64,000 bases of DNA from Anthostomella pinea (taxonomy: Eukaryota > Ascomycota > Sordariomycetes > Xylariales > Xylariaceae). Location of the stretch: positions 868,001-932,000 of the forward strand of contig CAUWAG010000004.1 of assembly GCA_963556695.1 (NCBI GenBank). The letters are read 5' to 3'. The position numbers were made by a program, and so were the translations under genes. This document shows positions 1,564 to 62,220 of the stretch, in pieces; positions within the stretch are counted from its first letter, which is position 1; each line of letters starts with the position of its first letter. The notes under the pieces were generated by a model. It saw only the letters and a list, made by a program, of their open reading frames with translations. It was not told the origin of the DNA and ran no database searches.

Positions 1564-3987
1564 AAGTAGTTAATAAATCGCTGGCTATAGGTAGACGGAT
1601 GTAGTAGGTATGAAGTTTAAACCAGGCTAGCAAGTGTCAAAAGTTTAAAGAGTATATACGGCTGGGAGGCCTTGGAGTTGGCAGGAGGGCTGGAGGGCTG
1701 GCGACTGTGTGGGACGATCTGGGATCTGGGATCTGGGGGGTGGTCTGTGGTCTGTGGTCACGCAGGCTGCTGGCGTAGGCTCGAGGTGGCAGTGGCAGGG
1801 CCTCCCACTCGTCTTCCTCTCACTCGCCGGCCAGGATCAGCTACCGTTTCCGAGGGGCTGGCGGAAGTGGGTTTGGACAGCCTTCGACGCTGGACCCAAA
1901 AGCCGGTCGTGGACTAACACACACGATACCTAATAATAATTATAATAATATCTATTTGCGGCATTCACTGTTCGACTGTTCGACTGTTCCACTCTCCGAC
2001 GGTGAATTTATCCTCATGCTGCCTTATTACCGTGGAAGTACACGAGGTATGCACGTCGCATCTCCAAACAGCAGATATACCTGCTTGAAGCAAGCAACAT
2101 TGGAGTCCTGATGCGGGGTCACACGCCATGTAATATGTATCGTGTAGCACCGGGCGCAAGAGGCGTGTACATGTACTCGGTGTTGCGAGGTGAGGTGACC
2201 CAAGATTCACAGCCTCAGAAGATTACGATGCTGCGGTGAGATGCAGGTCTCTGGTCTGCAGAAACTAGCAGCAGGCAGACGGGCAACCGATCAATCATTC
2301 TTGTTCGGCGTGAGACTGTCACCACCTTGTGATCACTGACAGCCTACAGGCTAAGTGTCGTGGTGGTGTGCGCCGAGGTGTGACTGCCGCCCGGCTACGA
2401 TCATAGCACCACAGACTTCTCTCGCTATGCCGAAGTTCCTTCCAAGTTCCAACGGTATCCCCTGCTCGACGGGCAGAAATGGATCATGCGGTTCCTGCCT
2501 TCCTGCCTTCCTGCCCATGGGATTTGTTCCTTGGGTTAGGTATTTATGTCGTCATCTCCAGATGGGGGGCCTTTTCAAAGTTCTTTCTGCAGCTTCAAGG
2601 TTCCATGCTGGGCGCAGTCTGGACAGGTTTCTTCAGGTCACAATGACAGAATGAGCACTCAGCTGGGTTGGAGTCGGCTTGGCTTCCGTTGGCTCCGAAC
2701 TGGCTGGGACATTCAAACCGACTTCCGCTGTAGCCGTAATAGATGCGCACGCTGCGTTGGTACAAGCCGAAGTGGCTCGAAGTGGCTCGAAGTGACTCCC
2801 GTCGTGAGGACCTGGGCAGTGGGCACGCCTTTGAAGTCCCACAGACACAGAGGCGCCTAAAAGAGGATCTGAGGCTGTCGCACTCCTTCTCGCTCCTTGC
2901 TCCTTGCTCCTTGCCCCTTGCGCGGCAGACTGTTTCATCCTTCTGCAGAACGTCCAACTCGCGATCCTCCGTTCCTGTGAAGGACTGAAGGTGCATCGGT
3001 GGATGTTGGTTTGATGGAGTTGCAACTTGTCGATTTCTATTTCAAGCATTGCGTTGTTGAGTCTGCCACATGGGCCGAATCCCGATGGCCTATCTGGGAA
3101 GATTACCGTAGTGGGTCCAGATCTGCCCAATTGTGGCTTCAACCCCGCCACATGATAGTTGAGTCCCCCCTGACATGCATGGATGTGGTCTCCCCTTGTC
3201 TGTGTTTCCTATCGAACATCGACGAAATGTGTTTTCTTCATATGGCAACTCGGAAACACATCGAAACATCGTTGCCACTGCCTTGGCAAGCTGCAAGGCA
3301 GTCTGTAATTCTGGGGCTGATGCCGAGTCGGCATGTCGAATACGGTAGGATGGTGTCTCACGCGAGCTTGACCTTCCCTCCCACTTTCCAAGCAAAGAGG
3401 GACATGATTATTTGGCGAGTGAGTGAACTATGAATTACGTTAATAACTTCTGGGGAAAATAAAGATCCCCATGGACTTGAGTTTCTGCATGGCGGAGCTC
3501 ATCATCATTGCGCTGAGCATCGGACGATACCGATGCTTGCTTGATCCAAATCGCTCGTCTCGTATCGACTCGAGTGGACATACTATTCGGCAGTGCTCTT
3601 TGGTACCCGCGGCATAGAAGACTGGCGTCTGGAGATCTGCCTGCTCTTAAGACCCCGTCTCTTCGAAAAGCCTGATAAATATAGGAAACCGCGGCGCTTG
3701 GTACTTACATTCCTGCAACCAGTCATTACGATGTTGGGCTGCTGCAGTCACATGTTTAGCCAGTGTAGTGCGACGATGTCAATTGGTCCAGAATGCAGCC
3801 TCTGTCGATAGTCTGTTCGCCCAGTCACCTAATGGGGTGAGGCTGAATACTGGATGTTCAGCTGAAGCTTTCGCATTAATACTGCCAAATACTGACCACC
3901 ACCTATGGGTACCCATCGTGGGCTCGTTCCTTGGAGAGCGCTGCCTTGCAATGAAAACATTCGTGTTGCTACATAATTTCATCCACG
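1564..3987. other. Gene-free interval, 2.4 kb
   Basis: No reading frame here looks coding on either strand. It holds the presumed promoter of the DUF3824-type gene on the left and of the HET gene on the right. Small tandem repeats occur: three copies of about 10 bases (GAAGTGGCTC type) near 2767-2796, and a pyrimidine-rich GCTCCTT array near 2890-2925. Confidence 0.5.
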
Positions 3988-6339
3988 ATGTTATGGGACT
4001 CTTCCGTTCCCAAGTTTCAGTACCCGCCTCTGCGCTCAGAAGACCGCAAATTCCGAGTCATCAAAATCCAGCCGTCGAAGGCAGGTTCTATCCCATCTCT
4101 CAGAGAAAGACTTCACATCGAGATCATCGAGGCAAGTGTTGACGATGTCAACACCTTCGACGCCCTATCCTACACCTGGGGCACCGGCGCGCCGGACAGG
4201 CAGGTGCTCATCGACACGCCTCAGGGCCAAAGAGAGCTACGCATCACCGAGTCGCTGGAGCATGCTCTCCGGACCCTTTCTCGACGTAGTCGTGTCCTTG
4301 ACCGTCCCATATTCGTCGACCAGATCTGTATCAACCAAGACGACAACCACGAAAAAGGGGGCCAGGTGCGGCTCATGGGCGACATTTACGCCAACTGTGC
4401 CCAGGTGATCATATGGTTAGGAAAGCAGACACGAGACTCGAGCCGGTATTTCGCTTTCACCGCCGAGCTGTGTGCCGATCGCGGCATCATGCGCCGCGTC
4501 ATGGGCCCGAACGTCGGGCATTTCCCACAGGTCTTCAACGCGGTCATGGATCCGACCATCGAGGTCAGCAGTGACGTACAGCGCCGGGACCGAGACGACC
4601 TGCTAGACCTCATAGCACGCCACGGTCCCCGCTACCCCGTCCGGGGGGTAGCAGACCTGCTGGGCCGGCCCTGGTTCAACCGCCTATGGACGATCCAGGA
4701 GATCTGCCTGGCGCCCGCGGTAGTCCTCGCCTGCGGAGACTCGGGGCTCCTGCGCCTCGACGACTTCCGCGCCGGCATCCTGTTCTACACCATCTGGAAC
4801 ACGCACTGGCTCAGGACGTCTGGCGCGTCGGTGTCGAAGGCGGAGGCGCGCCTGCGGAGCGGGATCTTCGACCTCAATAAGTCGTTCGTCCGCGTCTTCC
4901 AGGAGCGCAAGGCGATCCACCTCTCAACGACGGAGCGGAGGTCTCTCTACGACCTCGTGTTGAAGTACAACGTCAACGACGAAGGGGTCAAGGTGGGTGC
5001 GGGCATGGGCGAGGACCGCGTCTATGGGCTGCTGGGTTTGGCTCGGGACGACGAGATCAAGGGCGAGGCCGTGGCGGGCATGGAGGTTGGGGATGTGGCG
5101 AGCACATATACGAGATTCGCTTCTTCGGCTCTTCGGCACGGCCTAGGGGTGCTGGCTTTCTCGCAGTTTCCGAAGGAATTCAAGCCGAAGCCTGGGTATC
5201 GCGATCTGCCTTCATGGGTGCCAGATTGGTCGACGAGTCAGCTCAGGACACCACATGGCTACTCCAATCTGTCGACACCCGCTTTCTCGGCTGGTGGGGA
5301 GAGCCATGGTCAACATATCACGGTCGATATATCAAGAGGAACTCTCTCCATCGAAGGTATCGTAGTCGATCGAATAGCCCGCGTAGGGACTCGAAGTATC
5401 CAGTCGGACGGCGAGAGCTCAGTGGAGAATGCCGACTACGCCTCAGTGCGCCACTTCTTTGGCGAAATCCACGAGTACGTGCAGCTAGCAGCAGAAACCG
5501 GAGGACCCTACGCTCCCGACACTTCGGATGACATATCTTGCACTGATCTCGCAATCCGCTTGTTGGACGGCGGCCTCACCACGAAACAGTTTCCTGCGAC
5601 GTTCGACACCGCAAACCCACAGGAGACACTACGACGGATGTACACGCAGGTCTCCAAGTACGGGCAGCGACTCATAGACGCAGAAACGGGGACGCGGGCA
5701 TATGGCAGCATCTCCCGAATCATCGAAGCGGTCGGCATCGTGCCGTGGTACTGGGTCCCAACGAGCGACGTAGACCTGGTGCGGCTATGCGCCACGAGCC
5801 CCATCACGGCAGCCCGGAACTGGATAGAGGGCTTCATATGCACAATCATCGATATAATCGGCGTCTGCCTCGCGCTCGTGACCGTCCAGACAGTGGCCCA
5901 CTGGATCCGGTTCCGCCGGCGATTCTTCACAAAGGTGGACTTCGCGCATGCCGGTCGCGAGGCGACGTATGCTCGAATTGGCATAGATGCGGATTTCATG
6001 TCCGGGGAGGAGTGGGAGCTCTACTCGAGCAACCTGCTCAAGAATGCTGGGCGGAAGTTGTTCGTCGCGGACGGGGGATATGTCGGGCTGGGGCCCAGTC
6101 ATATGGAGAGGGACGACGTGGTTGTTGTGTTGCTGGGTAGTACCGTGCCGCTTATTTTGAGGCCTTGTGTTGAGAGTACTGTAGAAGGGAGGGCGCAGTC
6201 TGAAGCTAGACGGTCTGGGGAGAGGGTGTGTGACGCGGCTTGGTGGTATGTTGGTGAAGCGTACTGTGATGGGGTCATGGAGGGTGAGGCGTTGGGGGGA
6301 AGTGCGGCAGAGAGTGTTGTAAATTTTCAGATATTCTAA
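3988..6339 (+). CDS. HET-domain (heterokaryon incompatibility) protein
   Basis: Single-exon protein of 783 residues with an N-terminal HET domain. In characterised fungi this domain triggers a self/non-self cell-death reaction after fusion of unlike hyphae; the partner of this copy is unknown. Visible hallmarks are FDALSYTWG near residues 53-61, the block VDQICINQDD near 110-119, then GGQVRLMGDIY and VIIWLG. The C-terminal third has the usual companion pattern of long HET proteins (GRKLFVADGGYVGLGP, then DDVVVVLLGSTVPLILRP, then VGEAYCDGVMEGEA). A hydrophobic segment near residues 615-640 (FICTIIDIIGVCLALVTVQTV) could be a membrane anchor. It starts at ATG 3988, with no better upstream candidate. 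No NACHT or repeat module follows, so it is not an NLR-type incompatibility protein. Confidence 0.9.
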   Translation: MLWDSSVPKFQYPPLRSEDRKFRVIKIQPSKAGSIPSLRERLHIEIIEASVDDVNTFDALSYTWGTGAPDRQVLIDTPQGQRELRITESLEHALRTLSRRSRVLDRPIFVDQICINQDDNHEKGGQVRLMGDIYANCAQVIIWLGKQTRDSSRYFAFTAELCADRGIMRRVMGPNVGHFPQVFNAVMDPTIEVSSDVQRRDRDDLLDLIARHGPRYPVRGVADLLGRPWFNRLWTIQEICLAPAVVLACGDSGLLRLDDFRAGILFYTIWNTHWLRTSGASVSKAEARLRSGIFDLNKSFVRVFQERKAIHLSTTERRSLYDLVLKYNVNDEGVKVGAGMGEDRVYGLLGLARDDEIKGEAVAGMEVGDVASTYTRFASSALRHGLGVLAFSQFPKEFKPKPGYRDLPSWVPDWSTSQLRTPHGYSNLSTPAFSAGGESHGQHITVDISRGTLSIEGIVVDRIARVGTRSIQSDGESSVENADYASVRHFFGEIHEYVQLAAETGGPYAPDTSDDISCTDLAIRLLDGGLTTKQFPATFDTANPQETLRRMYTQVSKYGQRLIDAETGTRAYGSISRIIEAVGIVPWYWVPTSDVDLVRLCATSPITAARNWIEGFICTIIDIIGVCLALVTVQTVAHWIRFRRRFFTKVDFAHAGREATYARIGIDADFMSGEEWELYSSNLLKNAGRKLFVADGGYVGLGPSHMERDDVVVVLLGSTVPLILRPCVESTVEGRAQSEARRSGERVCDAAWWYVGEAYCDGVMEGEALGGSAAESVVNFQIF

Positions 6340-31830: not shown

Positions 31831-34800
31831 AGCCGTCCCGGCACCGGAGGCGCCACATCATCCCCCTCAGCCCCAAAGCCCAGATGTCCCACCTCCTCCT
31901 CTTCGTGCTCGTAGTCAGCATACCACTCGGGCGGCATCTTGACGACGCCCCAGCGGAGCCTGCACTCAGACAGCTTCCGGCAAGCCCCCTGCTCTTCGTC
32001 GCCGTCGCCTTTGTTGAGAAGCGTGCTCGACGACAGCGATAGCGAGCGCCACGACCTCATGGACCGCCACGACTTCTTCGCCGACAGCCTGCGCATCTCG
32101 ATGCCGCTAAACGCGCCCGCGCCCTCTCCGCTGCCTCTCCAGTCCCCTTCGTCGCCGTCTGTTGTCGGACTGTGCGGCCGGACGGGCATGTACGGCGAGG
32201 GCAGGAGATCAAAGCGCGAGGAGCGGGGGCTGCTGTCCAGCGCCATCGATTTGCGGGCGGCGTGGGACAGGGGCGACGAGTGGCAGGCCGCCGAGAGCGC
32301 TAGCGAGTTGCTGCCGGGGTTCACGATGGTGGAAGACAGTCGCTTGAAGCTTAGTAGTGGTGGGATGAGAATCAAGACCAGCGATACTATCATCAAGACG
32401 AGGAGAGACCAGACGGAGTATCCCACGGCGATGGCCGTGTTGTCGGGTAGTGAGGGGTCACTGATTTCGGTACTACCGGTACCGACAAAGTCGCTTCCAT
32501 AGTAGCCTTATGCCGTGTAAGCAGAGTAAATATCAACAGTCAAGGTTAGTGTTGTGGTAGACTCACCTCCGATTGATACAAAGACATAGATCGTATTGGA
32601 GAGCAGCCAATGTAGAAAGACGCTGACCGCGATTAGGGGAAGACTATACTTGTATGGTAGTTGTAGCCGGTAGGTAGAGTACTGGTTACCCTGTTTCGAT
32701 CGATCAGCATTCCTCACGACAATACATATCTGCTTCGGCGTACCTTCGGTTCAGTGACTCGGAGAGGGTGATACCCATCGCTGAACTGTGCAAACTCTCG
32801 AGCCATCTGCAGGCGAGTGAACATGTTATTGTACTGCAACAATGAATTAATAAACGAACACGGGGATGGTTTGCTGGCTTGCAAAAGATCCGGTTCCAAT
32901 CCCAAATTCATATTGGCCGGCCGCCTGGGACACTCGCCTGGGACAGAAGCGGGCGCGACATGAACATCGGAAAGGGAACAACAGGAAGGACACAAAGTAG
33001 GACGTCACTTACAGCTAAGTAGCAGAATGAGAGTAGCAGTTGCGGACTATTTGCCAACAAGACTGCATTGATGAGTGAGAACGCAAGCGGGATGAACGAA
33101 TTCTCGTCACCTCCGAGAAAGGTGCCTTGCCTACAGAACAGTTAGCTGTCTTTCCTACCCGAGGCACAAACGTTGAGCACTCACAAGCCGTTCGTATCCA
33201 ACGCATTTTTGAACAGCCCTACACAGGTCCCAATACCAACGAGGAACAGTAAGTAGCTCGTCGTCCATACAGATATCGGAACGACCGATGCCCGGCGCTT
33301 TGGCAACGCGCGCCATTGTCGCGGCCCGGGAACGAGAAAGGCACGTTTTGACCTCATAGCTCTCCGTATGTCTGTTTGGTCAACGGTGCTCAGCCCGGCC
33401 GTGACTCGGTCCGGTTGCTCGATGAAGGAGGCTATGGCATCCCCTAAAGTCACCAGGGGCGCCTGATTGCGGCGGCAGAGTACGATGGTGACCACGATGG
33501 CCGTGACGGTCTTCACAATTACACATATAGTAACTCCCATCAGTAGGGTAGGTGACAGTGCGATATCTGCAGGGGTTGGTGTTAGTTATGACTGCATGCT
33601 TATACCAACAAGGAAAGATGATGACTTTTGCGTCCTGATTGTTGCTAGTGACCCCAAGACTAACGGCCCCGAGGAGACAATACCGCATGGCTTAGGGCAA
33701 TGATGGGATACACGGATTCGTGGTAAAGCTGCTTACGGCATATGTCTTCGACTTGCTCCGCCAGACAATCTTAGCGACGAGTTAGCGATTGGTCAATTCG
33801 TGGAGAGACTTGAGAGAGCCTCAGGCTGCGCCAAAAGGGTAAAAAAAGGTCTGACTACTGCTTGTGACTCGGGCGGGGTGATATTTGCTACAAGCATTGC
33901 CTGTGAGCGGTGCAGGGGAAACTGTGAATCCGAAATGACTTACATTTCAACGTTAGGTTGAGAGAGTCAGGCTGAAGGCCCGATGTGTTGGTATAGACGG
34001 AATGCTTCCAGGTCCCGTTGAATTGGTCAGAACCATTGACCGCTTCATACGACGCGTAAGTGGAATTGTCAATGAAAGGATACCGCCAATCATGAAGCCC
34101 GTCAAGGGAGCCATCACCTAAGGCGCCGCTGCATGTATTACTGCATTGCGTTGGTTCCTGATTCACCTGCAGGGCGTTCATGGCACACTGCGCGTCGAAA
34201 AAGAGATGATTGGGCTGATCCGCAGGAACATACTGGTCCCAGAACGTTGCATCGTTATCTTGTAGATGCCAGATGTCGTCTCGCACCCATCCACTTGGCT
34301 GATCCATCACCCACAAGACGTTGCGGTATTTCTTCAGCCCGTGGCAATCAATATATTGCGCGTAACAATTTGCTGCTTCGAGCCTGTCCCAGCTACCAGC
34401 GTTCGCAGCAGTATTTGTTATGTTCAATACAGCAGGAGAGTTCTTAGTGTCGTAGTCTGACATATTCACCGGGGACCCGTAAGCGGACCCGCCGGGCGAC
34501 CAGGAGGAATAGTCTGGCCGATAGGCATCGCTCAGGTTAAGATTTTTGTAATATTCCGCCCAGTGGTTTTGAACAACGTCGTCGGAGGCCAGAGCTGGTA
34601 GAATTAAGCTCCCACCGGGAGGGAAAAAGGCACCACCGTTCACAAGTCTCTCGTTGCCGATTGTCAGATGGAAATCGGACTGCCGGTGGTCCGTTTCGAA
34701 AATCGTAGAGTTGAAAAGCACATGGATCGGTATCGAGCTCAATAGCAAGAGCACCCAACACCATGTCTTGAATTTGGAGACTCGGAACGCGTTTCGAACC

Positions 34801-35450
34801 GAGGGCACGCCAATACCCAACCAGGAGCCTCTGAAATGCGCTTGGTTCACTTCCTCCCGAGATGGCGAGTTGAGCACCTGCATGAAGAAGTTGCTCGAAG
34901 CGAGCCTGTGTCTTGGGTTAGTACGGCATCAACTTCGAAGTGAATGTATCACATGAAAAGACCCTTCCCTGCATGGTTGGCCCTGGACGACAGTAACCGT
35001 CTTGTTGACTTCCATCGTGGGAGGGAGTGAGTCGACTTTGAGAACAGGCCCTGTGCCGTGAGACCATGGTATGGTTCAGCCGCCAGGAGATGCAACTCGG
35101 CCCAGCAGCCAGATCAGAAATTTACTTACTATTATTTCCAGTTAGCGATATATCCGACGAACTCGACATAAAGGTCTCGCATTGAAAAGCTTGAAAGAGC
35201 GGAGGCTTACCACTAGAGTCGAAACGATATTAATCAGCAAATGGAGCGCCAGGTTGACCGAGGCCACATTCTTTCCGCCGCAGTCGCCATCGTAGAAGAA
35301 CAGGGCATGTTGCGCGTCATGCGACAAAGCTGCGATGGTACAGGCCAGCAGAGCCACCGACATGACACTGAGGACGACGCAGTTGACCTTTGCCGCCTTC
35401 TTCCAGCCATTCGAGTCCTGCTTGGAACCCCGGAAATTGAGGCTGCCCAT
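31821..35450 (-). CDS. DUF6536 multi-pass membrane protein (8 exons; first junction unresolved)
   Basis: Fungal-specific membrane protein of unknown function with the DUF6536 domain. Exons read on the minus strand are 35211-35450, 33944-34905, 33737-33769, 33185-33566, 33013-33130, 32744-32833, 32567-32690 and 31821-32506. Phases agree at six of seven junctions. The N-terminus is MGSLNFRGSKQDSNGWKKAA, followed by a membrane segment and the family block LHLLINIVSTLV. The next exon gives LASSNFFMQVLNSPSREEV and a second membrane segment near WCWVLLLLSSIPIHVL. A large outside loop with several NxS/T sites follows, then further membrane segments. RWGVV near the end is a common family feature. Between exons 1 and 2 the canonical sites (GTAAGC and ACACAG) leave one base too many for the expected frame. 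The cause may be a tiny exon, unusual splicing or a mutation. Confidence 0.8.
34906..35210 (-). other. 305-base first intron of the DUF6536 gene
   Basis: Much longer than the gene's other introns (53-179 bases). It contains a second plausible branch/acceptor pair (GCTAAC...AATAG) about 60 bases inside. I could not find an internal exon that fixes the reading frame. Confidence 0.4.
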
Positions 35451-42050: not shown

Positions 42051-43676
42051 ATGGGCGTGGTTGGCAATGCGCGACAGTTCCTCTCCGGGACGAAGAAGGA
42101 TTCTGCGTCGAAGCCTCCCTACCTGCTCCCACTCCGCTCCTCGACGACATTGATAGTACTTACTGGTGAGCTTACGAAACCTTCCACCTCTTATTGGCTT
42201 ATATACTGATTCGGAAAAGTGAATCTGGCCATCTTCACCGACATCTTCTATTACGCCCTAGTAATCCCAGTCATCCCCTTCTCCCTCACCGTCCAAGTCG
42301 GCATTCCAGAGGACCAAGTCCAGCACTGGACGTCAATCCTGCTAGCCTGCTACAGCGTCGCCCTGTTCATCGGCAGTCCCATCGCGGGGCTGTACGCAGA
42401 CCACACATCGTCGAGGCGATGGCCGCTCCTCATCGGCCTGGTAGCGCTCGCCGCATCAACGCTGTTACTATGCTTCGGCAACTCAATAGGCTTGTTGGTC
42501 TTGGGTAGGATCCTCCAGGGGTTCAGCGCATCCGTCGTCTGGAGTGTCGGCTGCGCGCTACTCGTCGATACCATGGACAGCGCCGTGGGTGTGGCGATGG
42601 GCTATGTCATGACCTCTATGAGTGTCGGTCTCCTAATTGCACCTGTCATCGGCGGCGCTGTCTACGGTGCTGTGGGCTATTATCCTGTTTATTACATCGC
42701 GTTTGGCATCGTCGCTGTTGACGTTTTGCTAAGGCTGTTCATGATCGAGAAGAAGGTCGCGAGACAGTGGATCAGGGAGGAGGAGCCCAGCCCCTCGGAA
42801 ACCGAAAAGCCTTCGCGCGACGTCGAGAAGGCAGTCTCTACGATAGGGTCGCGCACAGAGGACGCGCCGCAAGATGCCGTCGCGGCCTCGGTAGTAGCAG
42901 GCAGTGCCCAGACTCGACAGCCCAAGACAGGACCAGAGCCTGAAAAGGCGGCAGATATCCCTCAACAGGACTCCAGGGACCCTTCACCGGTACCTCAGAG
43001 CCCTGCCAAACCCCGCCCACTCGTCGTGCTCCTCAAGTCACCAAGGCTGCTCGCCGCCCTCTACGGCGTGGTAGTCCAAGCTGGCATCATGATGGGGTTC
43101 GACGCCGTGCTAGCCCTGTTCGTGCAGCGCACATTCCACTGGAACTCCACCGCCGCTGGAATCCTCTTCCTAGCAATCTTCCTTCCGGGCTTCGTCTCGC
43201 CGCTCGTCGGCTGGCTCTCCGACAAGTACGGCGCCAAATGGCCGTCGTTCGCCGGGTTCTGCTTTACGGTGCCCCTCCTCGTCTGTCTGCGCTTCGTCAC
43301 CGAGAGCACCATCGGGCACAAGGTCCTCCTCGGCTTCCTCCTGGGTCTCCTCGGTACGGCGCTCGCGTTCTCGAATACCCCTCTCATGGCCGAGATCAGT
43401 TATGTTATTGAGGAGAAGGCTGCCGAGAACCCGGGGGTCTTTGGCGAGAAGGGCGTCTATGGGCTTGGGTATGGTCTCTTCACCATGGCGTTCGCGCTGG
43501 GAGGCACGATCGGACCGCTGTGGGCTGGGTATGTTGTCGCTTCCGCGGGGTGGGGTACCATGACTTGGAGCTTCGCGGTCTGGGCGGCTTCGGGTGCGGT
43601 GGTCATCGTTGTATGGCTGGGTGGGCAAGTTAAGAAGCCTGAGAAGCCACCAGTAGGCCCACGGGAGAGCGGGTGA
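42051..43676 (+). CDS. Major facilitator superfamily transporter (DHA1-like, 2 exons)
   Basis: Proton-coupled exporter of the 12-helix drug:H+ antiporter type; cargo unknown. Exons 42051-42165 and 42220-43676, with a 54-base intron (GTGAGC...AAAG), 523 residues. The join gives RSSTTLIVLTVNLAIFTDIF, a normal first helix; without exon 1 the frame would open with GTG. MFS motif A appears as GLYADHTSSRRWPLLIG after helix 2 and again, degenerate, as GWLSDKYGAKW in the second half. A hydrophilic central loop of about 100 residues, rich in Glu, Ser and Pro, separates the two six-helix bundles and could be a regulatory or ubiquitination site. It most resembles fungal transporters annotated as vesicular-amine-like. 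No biosynthetic gene adjoins it, so a resistance role is not supported. Confidence 0.9.
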
Positions 43677-44454: not shown

Positions 44455-46460
44455 GCTGTGAAAGGTCCTCGTGGTGTTGACAGCCTCGGGATAACATCTC
44501 CCACCCCCCTGCGGACCACCCCCCCGCGGACCAGCGCGTTCTGACCCACAAACGCGTAATTCACCAACCACCAGGATTATGGTGATCCACCATCTACACC
44601 ATCACTTTTACATCTTTTTTTTCATAAGCACACTATTTGAATCCTTATCTACTGCTGAATCTCATGATGTTATTTTACGACCGTCAAATAAAAGCTGAAA
44701 CCGCCATTTTGGCCATCCAACACGGAGCTCCAGTCTGCTCGTCAGCCCTCGAATGGCAAATCAGTCGCTCGTACGTCAACCGACGAATCTCTGGCACCCC
44801 AACGCGGAATGAGACCAGCGCTCTCCAACAGGCTCTCTCACCGTATCTTGAACATAAGCTGGCAAGCTGGGCCCTGGGGCAAGCACGGCTAGGGTATTCT
44901 CCGGCGGTCTCTAAGTTCCGTCTCATGGCCCAGCGGATGCTCCATGCCACCGGGGATGCTCGAGAATTAGGGAAAAATTGGGCATCCAAGTTCCTGTCTC
45001 GAAACCCGGAAGTCAAGATAATAAAGTCTCATGTTATCGACTACAACCGAGTGAATGGTGCTACAGCGGCAAATATCAACATTTTTTTCGATCAGTGTGA
45101 CGCCCCTGACGTGGTTAACCTCATGCCAGCACGCTGGTACAACGTCGACGAAATGGGAATCGCCCAGGGGGTTGGGGACTCCCATTGGGTGGTCTCCGAG
45201 GCCTCCGGCAACGTGGCTATGAAGAAAGGGGTCGAGAAGGGTGAATAGATAACTGCCTTAAAGTGTGTGAGCGGATCTGGTGAGACCTTGCCGCCGCTGG
45301 TGATTCTCAAGGGCATTAACGTACAAATCCAGTAATTTAGCAACCAAAATGAGGGCAAATTCACTGACTAGAGGTTTATTACGTCGCCCAATGGATGGAC
45401 CTCGAATCCCATTGTGTTAGAATGGTTTCAACGTATCTTTATTCCTCACATTCGGGAGGTCCACGGCAACACATGGGTGGTTTTGGTGTGTGATGGCCAC
45501 GACTCCCACACGAATGACGAGTTCCTAGCCACCTGCTTGAGAAACAAAATATGGTTGATCTTTTATGAACCTCACTGCTCCTATGTAGTCCAGGTGTTAG
45601 ATGTGGGAGTCTTCAATTTGGTGAAGAAAAGGTTGAAGACCTTACTCCAGGAGACGCCCAGCGGCCGTCTGGGACTCAGGCCATCTAAGGAGGAGGTTTT
45701 GGAGTGCTACGAGCAGGCCCGGAAGGACACAATGACGCTCCTCAATATCAGAATTGCCTGGAAAAAGACTGGGATTGTTCCTCGCAACAGAGCAGAGGCG
45801 TTAAAGTCGAAATATGTGATTCTGGAGGACAAGGGGGTGGCCAGGGCACGCCAGAGGGACCCTAAGGCTTCCGAGCGAGCCACAACACCAGATTTTCTCG
45901 AGATGGTAGCTAAAACCATTGTCACAACACCCTCTGGAAGCCGGGCTTTGCGGGAGAGTGCTCGAAAGCTCGAAAGAAAGGACCCTTCCTTTGGGGGGCC
46001 CTCTGAGCGCTTGTTGGTGCAGAAGGCTAGCAAGGCCATGGATGTTCAGGCTGCTACCATTACAAATCTACGGGCCAAATATGAGCTGTTTGAGGCTCAA
46101 GTGGCTAAAAAGGCTAATACCATTCGAAAAGCAGTCAAACCAACACTAGGGGAACGATTCGTCACAATGGCTAACATAAGGGAGGCCAAAATGGAGCTGA
46201 GGAACAGGAGGGTCTATAGGGACTCCGCTGCAGGCGAAGAGGTCCCACAAGAGGTCCCTGGTGAAGATTTAGGGTCGGAATCGGATTCTGGGAGCTGTAT
46301 TATGATTAGAACACCACGACCTTAGTGTATTTAGCAACTGTGGTGGTTGTAGATGGCTTCATCTGAATGAGAGTGGTGTGGTGTGGAGTGGTCCGTGGGG
46401 GGGTGGTCCGCAGGGGGGGGTGAGATGTTAGGGGGTGAACACACGGAACTCTTTCACAGC
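44455..46460 (+). mobile_element. Fot1/pogo-like DNA transposon with long terminal inverted repeats
   Basis: About 2.0 kb. The inverted ends run from GCTGTGAAAG at 44455 to its complement ending at 46460 and stay alignable for about 80 bases. The best-kept part starts at 44494 and ends at 46428 (ACATCTC, a C run, TGCGGACC, another C run, GCGGACCA). A TA dinucleotide flanks that inner part on both sides, so either the TIR is long and imperfect or the true ends are the inner ones. One transposase frame lies inside on the plus strand. Confidence 0.8.
44664..46325 (+). pseudogene. Fot1/pogo-like transposase, three premature stops
   Basis: One continuous frame from ATG 44664 to TAG 46323-46325, about 553 codons, interrupted by TAG 45246, TAA 45333 and TAG 45369 with no frameshift. 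It reads as a DDE_1/CENP-B-type transposase. The N-terminus has helix-turn-helix domains (ETAILAIQHGAP, then NWASKFLSRNPEVK). The catalytic core shows ARWYNVDEMGIAQG, CDGHDSHTNDEFL and EPHCSYVVQVLDVGVFN. All three stops fall where the family usually has tryptophan (GE-stop-ITAL, Q-stop-FSNQ, D-stop-RFITSPNGW). The copy cannot make full-length enzyme. Confidence 0.85.
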
Positions 46461-55480: not shown

Positions 55481-56817
55481 AACTGGGTGGACAAAAGTCT
55501 CCGTACACCCCACCACTAATCTCCAACAACGCGTCAACCACCCTTCAACTTCAACACTCTCTGAACAACGCAAATCACGATGGTATTTCGATCTTTTGGA
55601 GACGAATTGAGCGGCAGTCGCGCGCCGAACGGGGAGTTCACTCGCGATGCTCGCTCTGCGATTGTGGCGGCGAGAGTGCTAGGGCAGAGCCGCAAGGAGG
55701 TTGCCGACGCGTTCAAAACCACGCGCCCTGCCACCATCACTGAGACTGTCAAGCGCTTTGAGACCACCACCACCACAAAATCTGCTCCCAGAAGTGGTCG
55801 ACCAAGTGCTCTGAACAGTCATAAATGCGCCCGTGCTATTCAGGCAGTAAGGGACTTTCCCAGGGCCTCGTGATAAAAGACCTGAAATAAGGCCCGTATT
55901 CTCTGCTATGCGAAGACTATCAAGTGCCTCTGCCACGCCAGAGGGCTTAAGAAATGGCGAGCAGCCAAGAGGATCGAGCTGAATAAGGAGACGGCTCGGA
56001 TAAGGCGCGAATTTGCCGAATATTATGACCATCCGGAGCATATTCTTAAGCTCTTAAAGGCACTATTCTCTGATAAGTATACGGTCTAAAATGAATCGGA
56101 TAATCCAGGCGATTGGGTTATCCGATACTTGTCAGAGCAGTACCGTTACGATCTCGTGAACCCTACAAGTCACGGAAAGCCTCGTATTTCGATAATAGTG
56201 TGGTCTTAGATCTGGCTATGCGATAGATAAGGAGGACTGGGTAAGTTGATCTTCTGCCCACTCAATCTGGATGCTCCGCACGGAGGAGTATCCATAAAGT
56301 CATATGAACAGGTCTTTAAGAACGGCTTTCTTTCTTTCTATGAGGCTAGAGATCCTTTTATTCAAATAACGCGAAATTTCATCTCTCAAGAGGTGTTCCG
56401 GAGTGGTTAGAAGAGCACGGGATTCACTGTATTGACTGGCCTCCTTACAGCCCCGATCTCAACCCCATCGAGCACGTCTGGCGACTTCTAAAGAGGCAGA
56501 TACGTGCTATCGAGCCTGAATTCTCTGAATTAAAGAACAATATCCCTCATTACCAGTACGCACACGACTTAATTAAGAGGGCGTGGTCCGAGATCGATCC
56601 TAAGCAGGTACGCGTGCTGATCGAGTCTGTTCGTGATCGCATCGCCGCGTGCAGGCGCGCTGGTGAATGGTACACACATTACTGAACGGGCTATCGAAGA
56701 TAATTTATTTGAGAACTTTCTGACCAGAGTTGAGTGTGTTGTGGTTCAATTGAGTTGTGAGGTGTAGCAGGTCAGGGGTCCAGAAATGGGGCTGTACGGA
56801 GACTTTTGTCCCAGTTG
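55481..56817 (+). mobile_element. Tc1-like DNA transposon, degenerate
   Basis: 1337 bases with inverted ends: left AACTGGGTGGACAAAAGTCT, then CCGTACACCCCA; right (complement) CAACTGGGACAAAAGTCTCC, then GTACAGCCCCA. A TA lies immediately outside each end, the target duplication of the Tc1/mariner group. The interior encodes a broken transposase. Confidence 0.88.
55580..56685 (+). pseudogene. Tc1-like transposase remnant
   Basis: Opens at ATG 55580 with a paired helix-turn-helix region (FTRDARSAIVAARVLGQSRK, then EVADAFKTTRPATITETV). Stops appear from about 55871. The same frame still shows FSDKYTV (first catalytic Asp). A shifted frame gives NNAKFHLSRGVPEWLEEHGI and WPPYSPDLNPIEHVW (last catalytic Glu), ending GEWYTHY at TGA 56683-56685. 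The middle catalytic Asp appears as Asn (NNAKFH for the usual DNA-type motif). Not functional. Confidence 0.8.
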
Positions 56818-57170: not shown

Positions 57171-60100
57171 CTAGACTCGGGCACCCCTGAATGCAGTCGC
57201 AGGCCAGCCCTGCATCGTCTCCCCCTCGCCCACAACATCCCCAGCCATGATCAACGTGTGCTCAAGGAGACAGCTGTCGGGCCCCATCTCCGCACCAGAC
57301 AGGAGGCGGCTGTTCGTCCTCAGCACGCTCCGCTCGCCCACGCGTAGGCGGTTCAGGTCGAACTTGCCGCGCGTGTTCACGTGCCCGACCAGGCTAGCAT
57401 TATCAACCACGACGCGGTCGCCCAGCGTCAGCAGGTCCGGCTCCGTAAAGTACAGGCTGGGCTTCCCGTTGACGAACAGCGCGCAGTCTCTACCAATAGT
57501 CGCGCCGAGCGCCCGGAAGTACCACACCGCGTACGCCGTACCACTAAAAAAGCTCAGGATCCCGCTGCCGCCCAGGCAGTGCTGCCGCAACTTCTCGAGC
57601 GTCAGGTACAGCTGCCACCGCTGGCAGTAGCTGCTCTTGTCCCAGTCGTAGTTGCCCGGCTGCCGGCGCCCCAGGAGGAGCCACTTGGCAGCGATGAGGG
57701 CCCCGAGCGCGAGGACCACCTGCACCGTGATGAAGGCGGAGATCAGCACGGCGAAGTAACCGTACAGCGTGAACACGGAGGGCGCGCTCCCGTCTTTCAA
57801 TTCAAGCACTTGGAAGATGCGTGCCACTGCGATACGGGGTGTTAGCGACACTCCCAGAGATGGGACGGCCTGGCCCGCTTGGGATACTACTTACGGATCT
57901 GGATTGAGGAGATGGCTGATGCATCCCAGTAGATGTGCGTGAAAACGACCGTGCCCGCCGAGTAGAGGAATATCTGCCACGGCCGGAATACTGTGTATCT
58001 GTAAGCGACCGCCCACAGAGCCGATGAGACCACACGGGGAAATGAAGCCGAACGTCAAAATGCGATTAGGGGAAATTAGATCATGCTGCTCGGGTACGGT
58101 GATTAATACGCACCATAATACGCTGCTTGGTGCTGATAGAAGGCTCTGCCAAATGGGGACGATGAGTCCGCCCCTGTGGTGCTGGCCGGTCCGGCCTTTC
58201 TGGTCCTCTTGAATAAGTTGGCCAAATGCTTGCCAGGGACCGGGCGGGATAGCGAGTTTCCACAAGTGGGACAGCTTCCACAAGTGCGACAAACCTGCGG
58301 CGAAAGGAGAGAGGTACTGCTGCCTGATCCTACTCCCAATGTTTCGGCATGCAGTTGGGGCTTCTCGAGACTGGAGGTGCTGTCGTTGACGACCGGAGTG
58401 TCGGCTCCATAGGTGATACTAGAGGCGGTCGAACTCTTCTCGGTGACCCTGTTGACGCTCAAGCAGAGAGAATCTCCGCCTCTGGATCCTACATAGGTAC
58501 CACCAGCCTCGTATGTCTTGTCACGCTTCGTCATCGCGCCCGAACCCATGACCGCACGTTGCTTTATCCTGGTGTTTGGCAGTAAAACAACGCGGTCTGC
58601 AATCATGGCATTGTCCCCAATTGAGACGGTACCCGAACCAACGCCGTCCGAGGTGATAAGGTGCGATCGGGACCCGAACACGACATCGTTCCCGACGTCC
58701 AACAAGTGGTAGTCACCGATACTGGGTCCGGTCCCGGGCCAATAGATACGCTTGCCTGCCTTGCCCCCGAGCATCCGGATTGCGACGCTGGTAGCCTCGT
58801 AATGCTGGCCGAACAGCTCGGTGACGTCCCTTAGAGTGCCTAGTGGCATCAAGGACTTCATCAGTCCCATCCTCCACGTCTCGACCGACCCTCTCTCAGC
58901 AGCTAGACTTGGTCCAAGGCGTCCAAAGCACAAGTCAAGCAATACGCGGACGAGGACAACGAAGCCGAAGAGTAGGGCAGGCCCCACGAGGATCTTCAAT
59001 GAGCGAGCAAGATAGTGGTAGCCAATTCGCTCACTTCCGGCGAACCAGGCCAGGGTACCGGCGATTGATGCTGGCTCATCCGGGTCCGACCAGGCAAGGC
59101 CCAGAAGACCGGAGAACCATGGAAGCAGATAGAGAAACTTTGCCATGATCGAAAGGGGCGCAGTCGCAAACAGCGCCAGGGCCCAGTGGGTCCTGGGCGC
59201 TTTCGTCGCCGAGAGGTCACGGTTGGCCTCAGTTGCGTCTTCCATCTCGTGGGAGGAGGAGTTGGGTCCAATGCATGTCTCGTCCGGCACCACGGTCCCA
59301 GGCGCGACGACCGAGCTAACGCCTACGGACGCGTTCCGCCCGATGCTTATCCTGCCCAGGTACATCGTAGTATTCCTCTCTCCGGCCATGGGCCGGACAA
59401 TGCAGCCGTCGAGCGTGGCACCGTCGCCGATCTCAAGCAGATCCCACTCGCCGAGCTGTACATTCTTAAGCGTGACACCGCGCCCGATCTTCGCACCGAG
59501 GAGGCGGTAGTAGTGCAGCTCGAGGAAATCGGCGCTCCCGAAGAAGCCCTTGCCGCAGATGTCGACCAGCTTCTGCGTCATCCACCAGCGCGTGTGATAC
59601 GGACCCCACATCGGGTAGAGGCCCTCGCGGTGCCGTCCGATGATGATCCATTTCAAAGCAATGCCTACCCAGGGCATAGTGAGGCGCCGGGCAACGCGCG
59701 AGACGGCGATCGAGAGCACTAGATTGAACAGCCGTCCGTAGACGTTCGTGTTGGTCGGCAGTTGCCGGAAGAGGTTGAGCGCGTAGACGAAAATGGTCCA
59801 CCAGAACGCTCTGGTCAGAGGGTAGAAGACGACGACGGGAAAGAGCTGGAGTATCAGCAGGAGCAGGTTCGTCGAGCTGTATGACTTGCCGCTACCAATG
59901 GTGGCATCTTCCTTTTCACTGCCGGGCGTCTCTGTCGTCTGCCTCGACAGCTCCTCGTTGATGAATTCGGATAAGCGGTCGACGGAGCCAGCGCTGAAGA
60001 TCAGGTCGATGGGAAGGCGCATGTTGAACTTGCTACGCAGTATAGACAGGAGCTTGCCGGCTCGCAGCGAGTCTCCACCCATCTCCATGAACCCCTTGTG

Positions 60101-62220
60101 CGGAGCTATATCTTTGATGTCCAGCTGCAGTAAGTCGGCAAATACTTGAATGATTTGGCCCTCAGTTGACGAATCCAGAATAGCGGACGACACTTCGCGC
60201 TCTTCTTCCAGCTGCCTCTGTAACAATGCATGATCAATATTGTCCTTCTCGTCTCGGGGAAAAGCTTTCTGAAGTGTTGAAAACTTATGTGGAACCAGAT
60301 ACCCATCAAGGAGTGCCGATGCTGCCTCTTTCAAATAGTGCGCTGTACTAGCATCAAGAGCTGAACTTCGATCCAGCTTGGGCGCCATCACGGCCTCCAG
60401 AGTACCAACTCGACAGTTCTTCTCCACGATCACGTCAACCCCTGGGAATACCAGAGTTTCCAACAGTCGCTGTACATTTACCTGGGCGATATCACACGGC
60501 CAAGCTGAAATCGAAACATCGAGGCCTGTGTCCGGTGGAGGACAATGTGCTTCCCAGTGCCTCCTGGCATAAGGATACTCGTCGGTCGTGCAGGGGAAGT
60601 TCAGCCTCTCGCCCAGCTTGATCCGCAGCACCTTGCCATTCCTTTTCGGCGTAGCGTTCATATACACGACGACGACAGGCCACTTGACTTGTTGCAGTGA
60701 CGATCGCAGAGCTTCGTGCAGTAGGCGCAGGTCGGCGCGTGGCTTGTCTTTAGGCGTTACCAGCACGATTCCCACGACTTCCTGCAACACATCGTGCCGG
60801 GCGGAGAATGCTAGTGCCTCGGAGACTCTGCCGAATATGGGGGAGTCTTCCCGCTCGGCAGCCGCGACGATGGCGTTCTCGACCTCGAAAGGGGATACCA
60901 GCTCTCCCCCGCGGTTGATAACCTCCTTGTTGCGGCCGGTGATGTACAGATAGCCGTCGCTGTCCATATAACCCATGTCGCCCGTATCGAACCATCCGTC
61001 TGCAGTCAGGGCGGAAGTGTCGAGTGAGCCATCCGGTTGAAGGTATCCCTTGAAAGTTGGCTCGCCACGAACACAGATCTGGCCCACGTTCCCAGGGGTT
61101 GCTGGCGAACCATTGCCATGCATAATCACGAGATCAGGGCCTACGGATATGCCCGAAGTACCGGGGCGGTCCAGCTTGTAGTCTATTGGTGGTGTGCTTA
61201 CGGGCATGCACTCTGTCATGCCGTAACTGGGGAGAACAGTGCAGTCGAAAGTGCCTCGCAGCTGCGCGGCGAGAGCCGGGAGCAGGCCACCAGCGGCGTT
61301 GCAGATGAGGCGAATCTGCGACTTGGCCAATGCCTGGCTTCGAAATGCGGCTGTGTCGAGTATGACAGAGTGCATCGACGGCGACGCGTAGTACCATGTT
61401 GGGCCCATGGTGTCGACCACGTCCCAGAAGAGGTTGCCGTCAAACGCCGCACAGCAGATGGTCGACCCGCCGGCGAAGATTGGCGCGAAGACATTGCGGA
61501 TCAGGCCTCCTCTGTAGTCATTGTGAGCTCGAGACGTGGTCTGACGAGTATGCAGTTGACTTACACATGGCAGAGGGGCATCATGTTTAGACATGTATCG
61601 TTGGCTGTCAGGGCCCAAGACTCGATGACAAACCTGACGCCAGAGACGATGGAGTGCATGGTCATGGGCACCACCTTCTTATTTCCGCTTGTGCCACTTG
61701 TGAAGAGGATGATCCCATAGTCGTCTCCATGATTGGCAACTGGTGTTGACTTGTGGTGCGGGATAACTGAATGAGCAGTCTCAATCACGATCTCACCATC
61801 TCCTCCCTGCGAAACGAGGAAAACATCAAGCCCCGTCTGCTTGAGGCAAAGACGTTCAGCCTCCGCATGGCAGGATACGACGGCACTGGCCCCAGAGAGC
61901 GCAATATCTGCCACTATCTGTTCCGCACCTGCTGCCGCGCTGATGGGAGCGGCGGCATACCAGGTCGCCGTGGCCAAGACGGTGGCAGCCAGCAAGGGTC
62001 CATTGGGAAGGATGATGGCCACAACGGGCTTGCTCAAGACACCACTGTTCAGGACTGGAAGGGTAAAGTTGCTGACGTAGTCCCGAAGCTGTTGGTGTGT
62101 GATGTCACTCCCGTCATCAGCGTGGCGCAAAGAGGCTTTGGAGGAGGGTTGTATGAAGTCTGCGAGGCTTTCATATGTGGACGGCAGCTGCCAGGGGTTG
62201 TTTTCGATTAGCTCGGGCAT
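57171..62220 (-). CDS. Pls-like (epsilon-poly-L-lysine synthetase family) membrane nonribosomal peptide synthetase, 4 exons
   Basis: Exons 61565-62220, 58110-61511, 57895-57998 and 57171-57826; introns 53, 111 and 68 bases; all phases agree, 1605 residues. Adenylation domain: LFTSGTSGNKKV near 172-183, MPLCHVGGL near 214-222, SYGMTE, GWFDTGD, GRNKEVINRGGE and NGKVLRIK with Lys512. A carrier domain follows with MEMGGDSLRAG (phosphopantetheine Ser about 700). Then come three soluble domains of hexapeptide/left-handed-helix type, each beginning with a Gly/Ile repeat (LGAKIGRGVTL, LGGKAGKRIYW, LGATIGRDCAL). Each is preceded by a pair of membrane segments: about 768-785 and 815-843; 996-1026 and 1058-1082; and 1357-1380 and 1400-1437. 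This A-T-TM2-C-TM2-C-TM2-C order is that of Streptomyces Pls and of fungal epsilon-polylysine synthetase. In that family the carrier-bound amino acid is joined repeatedly into a homopolymer without a classical condensation domain. Lysine as substrate is inferred, not shown. The third intron's GTAAGT and first intron's GTAAGT are canonical; the second uses GTATTA. Confidence 0.88.

Follow-up and report, generated by a model that had tools for sequence, protein, structure and literature searches.

Gene structure and membrane module

The window analysed here is a stretch of 64,000 nucleotides from the ascomycete Anthostomella pinea, a member of the Xylariaceae, and the gene under study lies on its minus strand at 57171-62220. 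The gene is intact, and its four exons comprise 1601 codons and a stop codon. The deduced protein is identical to the NCBI protein Uu.00g098030.m01.CDS01 of Anthostomella pinea (100% identity over 100% of the length), which is unnamed. All features of the gene given below are on the same minus strand. Exon 1 (61565-62220) encodes residues 1-218 and a part of residue 219. Exon 2 (58114-61511) carries the rest of the adenylation (A) domain, a second and apparently dead A-subdomain, the thiolation or carrier (T) domain, the first two membrane hairpins and left-handed beta-helix (LbH) regions, and a linker. The fifth membrane segment (about residues 1352-1383, with a weak hydropathy maximum at 1361) is encoded by exon 3 (57895-57990), while exon 4 (57171-57826) contributes the sixth membrane segment, the third LbH region and the stop codon. 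The splice sites are consensus-like, with the donors GTAAGT, GTGCGT and GTAAGT and acceptors which all end in CAG.

A sequence-only reading of this DNA had described a Pls-type synthetase as a candidate maker of epsilon-poly-L-lysine or another homopoly-amino acid. The position and strand given there, the four exons and the sequence of domains agree with the gene model and the domain scans, and the core motifs and the phosphopantetheine serine, which it regarded as intact, are all present (K182, E319, D397, R412, K512, S700 and H1532). The chain length of 1605 residues given there has to be corrected to 1601, a difference which presumably arises at a splice junction.

The adenylation core (residues 33-376, 61040-62124, interrupted by the intron at 61512-61564) is recognized by PF00501 with 164 bits and is of the acyl/oxalate-CoA-ligase type, its best PDB match being an oxalate-CoA ligase. 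It is followed by the working C-terminal A-subdomain (residues ~410-522, 60602-60940) with the catalytic-type Lys512. Behind this, hhalign detects a second, degenerate A-subdomain of the non-ribosomal peptide synthetase (NRPS) type (residues ~559-653, 60209-60493), in which the A10 lysine is replaced by Asn643. The T domain (PF00550, 46 bits; residues 671-736, 59960-60157) contains the phosphopantetheine serine, Ser700, at 60068-60070. The remaining chain consists of alternating membrane hairpins and LbH regions. Hairpin 1 covers residues 768-842 (59642-59866; helices 239-271 and 280-313 of the modelled fragment), and LbH region 1 about residues 885-975 (59243-59515), which are modelled by AlphaFold2 and overlap a stretch (773-972) matching the NCBIfam profile TIGR02353. 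Hairpin 2 covers residues 995-1081 (58925-59185; helices 466-496 and 516-552 of the fragment, and hydropathy), and LbH region 2 about residues 1130-1240 (58448-58780; AlphaFold2, and PF00132 at 1181-1212). LbH region 3 comprises about residues 1488-1592 (57201-57515) and includes His1532 at 57381-57383.

For comparison, three homology searches were run, which returned 1124, 1053 and 872 proteins at E <= 0.001; the best 120 of each were combined to 216 distinct proteins, the fungal homologues of this study. Their mean hydropathy has maxima at about 772-779 and 818-835, at 1006-1018 and 1060-1075, and at 1361 (weak) and 1405-1429, which we read as three membrane pairs. The AlphaFold2 model of residues 530-1245 (50-row alignment; pLDDT 85.4, pTM 0.66) contains two hairpins of long helices, with beta-helix-like strands behind each of them. 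The complete module of three hairpins and three LbH regions is seen only in the model of a bacterial homologue, the intron-free gene of Novosphingobium olei (51 rows; pLDDT 88.6, pTM 0.90), in which six membrane-length helices form three pairs, the first of them broken, together with three strand-rich regions. The paired arrangement of six membrane segments, as originally proposed, agrees with the hydropathy and with the helix pairs of both models. Of the three hexapeptide domains Pfam finds two stretches only; the third is based on a TIGR02353 stretch in exon 4 and on the model of the bacterial homologue.

TIGR02353 describes the terminal domain of Pls and PosA. A search with it had been proposed in the sequence-only reading, and it gave an E value of 2.9e-56 for the whole protein, which confirms that the module is homologous to the C-terminal module of Pls and PosA. 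The score of 191.2 bits is nevertheless below the curated cut-off of 423.1. Bacterial Pls/PosA proteins reached 359-823 bits (six loci fetched, five scanned), and one of them is itself below the cut-off. The highest value belongs to a protein of 846 residues annotated as Pls/PosA synthetase on a plasmid of Streptomyces sp. CdTB01 (2946-5486, plus strand), which matches the full profile from residue 130 onwards (823 bits) and has no space for an A domain. A second Pls or Epls gene was not detected in the Anthostomella assembly by an exon-by-exon search with TIGR02353, from which weak genes could escape; the three matches obtained all lie in the gene at 57171-62220.

In the C-terminal module the fungal homologues and Pls/PosA have few polar residues in common. 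The clearest candidate for catalysis is His1532 of LbH region 3, which is found in 215/215 fungal homologues (one gapped), in four of four near-full-length bacterial homologues and in four of four Pls/PosA proteins. The following residues differ, since the motif H-x-x-E-D-R of the four Pls/PosA proteins is H-x-N-T/S-R-G in the fungal family. One may speculate that the altered loop reflects the formation of an ester instead of an amide.

Among solved structures a sequence search with the C-terminal module gave only weak matches (best E 0.0064), mostly to LbH proteins. The module models resemble, with low TM-scores, LbH acyltransferases, for example the acetyltransferases for serine, maltose and galactosides; carrier proteins and proteins with an A domain and a peptidyl carrier protein (A-PCP) are also among the Foldseek matches. 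As the acetyltransferases act in a single step, and as the A domain is nearest to oxalate-CoA ligase, the protein might load one acid, e.g. oxalate, on its T domain and acylate a lipid, a sugar or a small acceptor only once. We give this a small chance, because the homologous modules of Pls and PosA work in polymerases and the polymalate (PMA) synthetase of Aureobasidium, to which we return below, is reported as the key enzyme for its polymer (PMC9210645, PMC11905612). Acyl-adenylating reductases, which the sequence-only reading had named as relatives that would speak against it, did not emerge: the Pfam scans of the protein contain no reductase domain, and with no C-terminal reductase family in these scans an A-T-R carboxylic acid reductase or NRPS-like reductase was ruled out.

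The adenylation domain and its pocket

The nearest solved structures of the A domain are the oxalate-CoA ligases 5ie0 (E 1.3e-59), 6qjz and 8aff, followed by feruloyl-CoA synthetase, fatty-acyl-CoA synthetase and malonyl-CoA ligases. In PosA, Asp217 is reported to hold the alpha-amine and Glu221 the side-chain amine of the substrate, and either mutant is inactive (PMC10522769). We aligned the 216 fungal homologues with four bacterial Pls/PosA proteins. Locus L008 served as the PosA reference, as its residues agree at all eight published pocket positions. Both acidic residues are present in four of four Pls/PosA proteins in this alignment (three of four in a second one, the fourth being gapped). 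In the column of Asp217 the fungal homologues have valine (174) or isoleucine (33) in all 207 comparable proteins, nine being gapped. The column of Glu221 is occupied by arginine in 209/209 proteins, with seven gapped, and the next position by asparagine in the same number. In the Anthostomella protein these residues are Arg224 (61496-61498) and Asn225, which belong to the family signature H-x-G-G-x-x-R-N. Arginine is also found at this place in four of four bacterial homologues. The exchange of glutamate for arginine reverses the charge and would therefore suit a carboxylate, so that the pocket seems to have been remodelled to accept an acid rather than an amine.

These residues bear on the original proposal. 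Like Pls, PosA and the fungal enzyme Epls, the Anthostomella protein has a T domain and three hairpin/LbH units, a histidine in the third LbH region and the same order of domains. Unlike these enzymes, it has an acyl-ligase-type A domain, lacks the amine-binding Asp and Glu, and contains an additional dead A-subdomain; the residues behind His1532 and the low TIGR02353 score set it further apart from Pls and PosA. The sequence identity with the four bacterial Pls/PosA proteins is 20-22%. Epls of Epichloe is reported to be 51% identical to Pls of Streptomyces albulus with a conserved pocket (PMC7179176), a published figure on which our statements about the likeness of Epls rest. The shared plan, the TIGR02353 E value and the conserved His1532 would also fit a true Pls-type enzyme for epsilon-poly-L-lysine or another poly-diamino acid. 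Such an enzyme is very improbable, however, as the profile score is less than half of the cut-off, the alpha-amine Asp and the amine-binding Glu are replaced throughout the comparable fungal homologues, the A domain is of the acyl-CoA-ligase type, and the E-D-R motif is changed. The pocket, the TIGR02353 score and the type of the A domain together led us to reject epsilon-polylysine synthesis. What is retained from the sequence-only reading is the architecture of an A and a T domain with three hairpin/LbH units and a homologous terminal domain, and with it the sound idea of a membrane homopolymer synthetase. The assignment to the Pls type proper is weakened by the score and the missing amine-binding residues, the maker of a homopoly-amino acid is not supported, and the pocket argues against a cationic antimicrobial product as well.

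Database names of family members include 'NRPS-like', 'peroxisomal-coenzyme A synthetase' and 'Oxalate--CoA ligase'. With plant AAE3 and yeast Pcs60, which are oxalate-CoA ligases, the protein shares the A-domain sequence, the motif P-L-x-H-V-x-G and the CoA-ligase-type C-terminal subdomain. These ligases differ in being free-standing proteins of about 500-540 residues without a T domain or membrane module, and in the printed alignments they carry Ala (AAE3) or Gly (Pcs60) at the place of Arg224. An arginine six residues after the motif histidine was likewise found in none of five bacterial acyl-ligase-type A domains with a readable motif (eight loci tried, counted by hand). Arg224-Asn225 therefore seems to mark this fungal and bacterial family. 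An ordinary peroxisomal or oxalate-CoA ligase, to which some of the database names and the best PDB matches point, is hardly credible because of the fused T domain and membrane module and because of Arg224; the true Pcs60 of the rice blast fungus (MoPcs60) is given as 522 residues (PMC8826238).

The linker between the working A domain and the T domain (residues 523-664) contains the second A-subdomain at 559-653, which the sequence-only reading had not noticed. Compared with the C-terminal A-subdomain of five bacterial Pls-type proteins it reaches an hhalign probability of 96% and a score of 58.7 (at most 18.7 in 100 column-shuffled controls, 12.3 in a reversed one). The working A-subdomain of the family itself gave only 12% and 22.2, so the linker is not a recent duplicate of it, and a copy of that subdomain was rejected as its source. 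Lysine is present at the A10 position in only 11 of the 216 fungal homologues. Foldseek with the model which holds the second subdomain gave five matches below E 0.001, all A-PCP proteins, over about 190-210 columns, which is more than a PCP alone; the TM-scores are 0.10-0.18 and the aligned range is not printed. In a Myxococcales homologue, residues 577-746 match the end of the model of the NRPS MxcG, i.e. A-subdomain and T domain. This NRPS-type subdomain is apparently dead and probably a relic of a domain exchange. In an ancestor with the plan of Pls the amino-acid A domain would have been exchanged for an acyl-ligase-type one, leaving the old C-terminal A-subdomain behind as a dead insert. 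We met no earlier description of it, although no literature search was aimed at it.

Homologues in fungi and bacteria

The homologues named among the matches listed come from fungi which we take to be Sordariomycetes, Dothideomycetes, Leotiomycetes, Lecanoromycetes, Orbiliomycetes, Onygenales and chytrids. Eleven key residues are all kept in 200 of the 216 proteins; 15 others differ by gaps only, and one has Asn for Tyr260. Ser700 is conserved in 216/216 and Lys512 in 215/215 (one gapped). A FastTree tree of the fungal and the four Pls/PosA proteins, of which a subset is displayed, groups broadly according to the fungal group, with the Anthostomella gene among the Xylariales. Chytrid sequences fall inside the ascomycetes, therefore transfer or poor rooting is possible.

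Members of the family are also encoded by bacteria. A prokaryote genome collection was scanned with two short peptide patterns derived from a 12-sequence fungal alignment, which matched 28 stretches, and ten of these loci encode a relative. As the patterns are exact, this number is a lower bound. Three Novosphingobium proteins and one from a Myxococcales metagenome-assembled genome (MAG) are near full length with 33-36% identity, whereas the other six loci match only in the A domain. Arg224, Asn225, Tyr260, Lys512, Ser700 and His1532 are found in all four full-length proteins, and none of the four has lysine at the position in the dead subdomain. Their pockets deviate from the fungal consensus by Ser for Val219 in one and Gly for Ser314 in three of the four. 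When the tree is rooted with Pls/PosA, these four group together in a clade next to that of the 216 fungal proteins. The joint clade has a support of 1.0 with the full alignment, 0.96 with the A domain alone and 0.999 with the C-terminal part; for the fungal clade the values are 0.998, 0.98 and only 0.685.

In N. olei and N. percolationis the synthetase homologue is followed by a phosphopantetheinyl transferase. Upstream are a two-component pair (by domain scan in N. percolationis, by eye in N. olei) and an outer-membrane-protein-like open reading frame (ORF) without a Pfam match, and the order at the loci L011 and L014 is two-component pair, outer-membrane-protein-like ORF, synthetase homologue and phosphopantetheinyl transferase. 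Farther along, L011 also encodes a TonB siderophore receptor (TIGR01783, 370 bits). The bacterial occurrence looks sparse: among 149 genomes sampled from the N. olei family, and among 112 from the phylum of the Myxococcales MAG, only one each carried a homologue at E <= 1e-100, in both cases the source genome itself. An earlier description of the bacterial members was not met in a loose literature search on bacterial polymalate, in which no listed paper mentioned polymalate.

Polymalate as the candidate product and the gene neighbourhood

A polymalate synthetase of Aureobasidium melanogenum ATCC 62921 (QHD40385.1) was reportedly described by Wang et al. in 2020. According to a review, the polymalate synthetase had been hunted for more than two decades, and the PMA synthetase gene of Aureobasidium is 5049 bp long and encodes adenylation, thiolation and condensation domains along with six membrane segments (PMC9210645). 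QHD40385.1 is described as a transmembrane enzyme with A-like, T and C-like domains, and in A. pullulans NRRL 62031 a 96.5% match to PMA synthetase lies in a cluster of the NRPS-like class (PMC11905612). Our search returned an A. pullulans homologue, here called P0124, of 1690 residues and 48% identity over 1615 aligned positions. Because genus, size, parts and the NRPS-like class fit the published description, we infer that P0124 is the Aureobasidium PMA synthetase. Like the Anthostomella protein, the published enzyme unites A-like, T and C-like domains with six membrane segments in a single chain; it has 1682 codons, if intron-free, compared to 1601 residues here. Polymalate as the product and control by Ca2+/Crz1 are further marks of the Aureobasidium type. 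P0124 and some other homologues possess an N-terminal stretch of about 100 residues which the Anthostomella protein lacks. Eight of nine PosA pocket positions are comparable between the two (one is gapped) and seven are identical; position 323 is Val in Anthostomella and Ile in P0124, and Ile in 211 and Val in two of the fungal proteins. Such a fixed pocket means that the family probably has one common monomer, in Aureobasidium reported to be malate.

We therefore regard it as likely that the Anthostomella protein is a polymalate-type polyester synthetase, orthologous to the Aureobasidium enzyme by way of P0124 and with its product deduced from that relationship. It would be an unnamed member of an already known kind of enzyme. 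The oxalate-CoA-ligase-like A domain would use ATP to activate a hydroxy-dicarboxylic acid, most likely L-malate, at one carboxyl group, and the other carboxylate may be bound by Arg224. The acyl group would be passed to the phosphopantetheine on Ser700 of the T domain, and the membrane module of six helices and three LbH regions would move it to the hydroxyl group of the chain under extension, so that an ester bond arises in place of the amide bond made by Pls, with His1532 as the likely base. The polymer would finally be released or exported at the membrane.

An unlikely alternative is that the same machinery uses another (hydroxy)dicarboxylic or beta/omega-substituted acid, so that its product is some other polyester or a polymer of mixed composition. 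The pocket does not reveal which acid is bound, the solved enzymes nearest to the A domain take their names from oxalate, malonate, ferulate and fatty acids, and the siderophore receptor near the homologue in one bacterial species would fit any metal-binding polycarboxylate. Against it stands the near-identical pocket of P0124, which we identify with the reported polymalate enzyme.

Several points weigh against polymalate as the product. QHD40385.1 was assigned to the family by its description. The pocket columns were placed by aligning sequences, and the two positions are separated by a short gap; a later alignment gaps one of the four Pls/PosA rows. The monomer is not transferable from the solved oxalate ligases, as these lack Arg224, and the residues after His1532 are unlike those of Pls. 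Neurospora, Fusarium and Trichoderma carry the gene and are, to our knowledge, not known as polymalate makers. No Penicillium protein is among the matches listed (best 120 per search), though P. cyclopium is a reported producer. The review places the six membrane segments of the PMA synthetase in the N-terminal part, while those of the Anthostomella protein are in the C-terminal half, and restoring the Aureobasidium gene is reported to have regained only one third of the production (PMC9210645). Since the A. pullulans genome also carries a separate NAPAA (polylysine-type) cluster (PMC11905612), a mix-up of enzymes is conceivable. This is weakened by the length of P0124, as Pls-type fungal homopolymer synthetases are said to have less than 1500 residues (PMC10522769).

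If the polyester reading is extended to the whole family, a hydroxy-dicarboxylate enzyme family born by an A-domain swap, with the dead subdomain as its fossil, would make polymalate-type polyesters in many fungi, from several ascomycete classes to chytrids, and in scattered bacteria, namely Novosphingobium with a phosphopantetheinyl transferase of its own and the Myxococcales MAG. We hold this possible, with somewhat more doubt than confidence. Should it be true, polymalate would be a widespread and overlooked microbial polymer with a bacterial route included; at least 216 fungal database proteins, some of them labelled 'oxalate-CoA ligase' or 'NRPS-like', would be candidate polymalate synthetases, and the intron-free bacterial homologues would offer a direct route to study polymalate synthesis. 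The same type of membrane polymerase seems to be in use for cationic polyamides as well as for an anionic polyester, and the switch can be recognized from two pocket residues.

The neighbourhood was surveyed for ORFs of at least 200 residues in 30000-57100 and of at least 120 residues in L010, a 10 kb stretch which starts 1 kb inside the end of the window, with Pfam scans of eight chosen pieces. No nameable tailoring gene of a biosynthetic cluster is among the surveyed ORFs, which include only transposase remains, an MFS transporter, a DUF6536 gene and unclassified ORFs. A fragment of a DDE_3 (Tc1/mariner-like) transposase (56350-56685, plus strand; PF13358, 54.6 bits) lies about 500 bases past the 3' end of the synthetase gene, and judged by eye the ORF at 55565-55873 may belong to it. 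DDE_1 (pogo-like) transposase ORFs flank the gene at 45372-46325 (plus strand, 52 bits), to which an ORF at 44628-45248 may belong by eye, and at L010:8973-9998 (minus strand, 104 bits). The MFS_1 transporter ORF is located at 42210-43676 (plus strand, 171 bits) and the DUF6536 ORF at 33891-34928 (minus strand, 105 bits). On the other side, 1017-2185 bases past the end of the window (L010:2017-3185, plus strand), two overlapping ORFs without a Pfam match are by eye alpha/beta hydrolase-like; they run divergent to the synthetase gene and may encode a polymer hydrolase.

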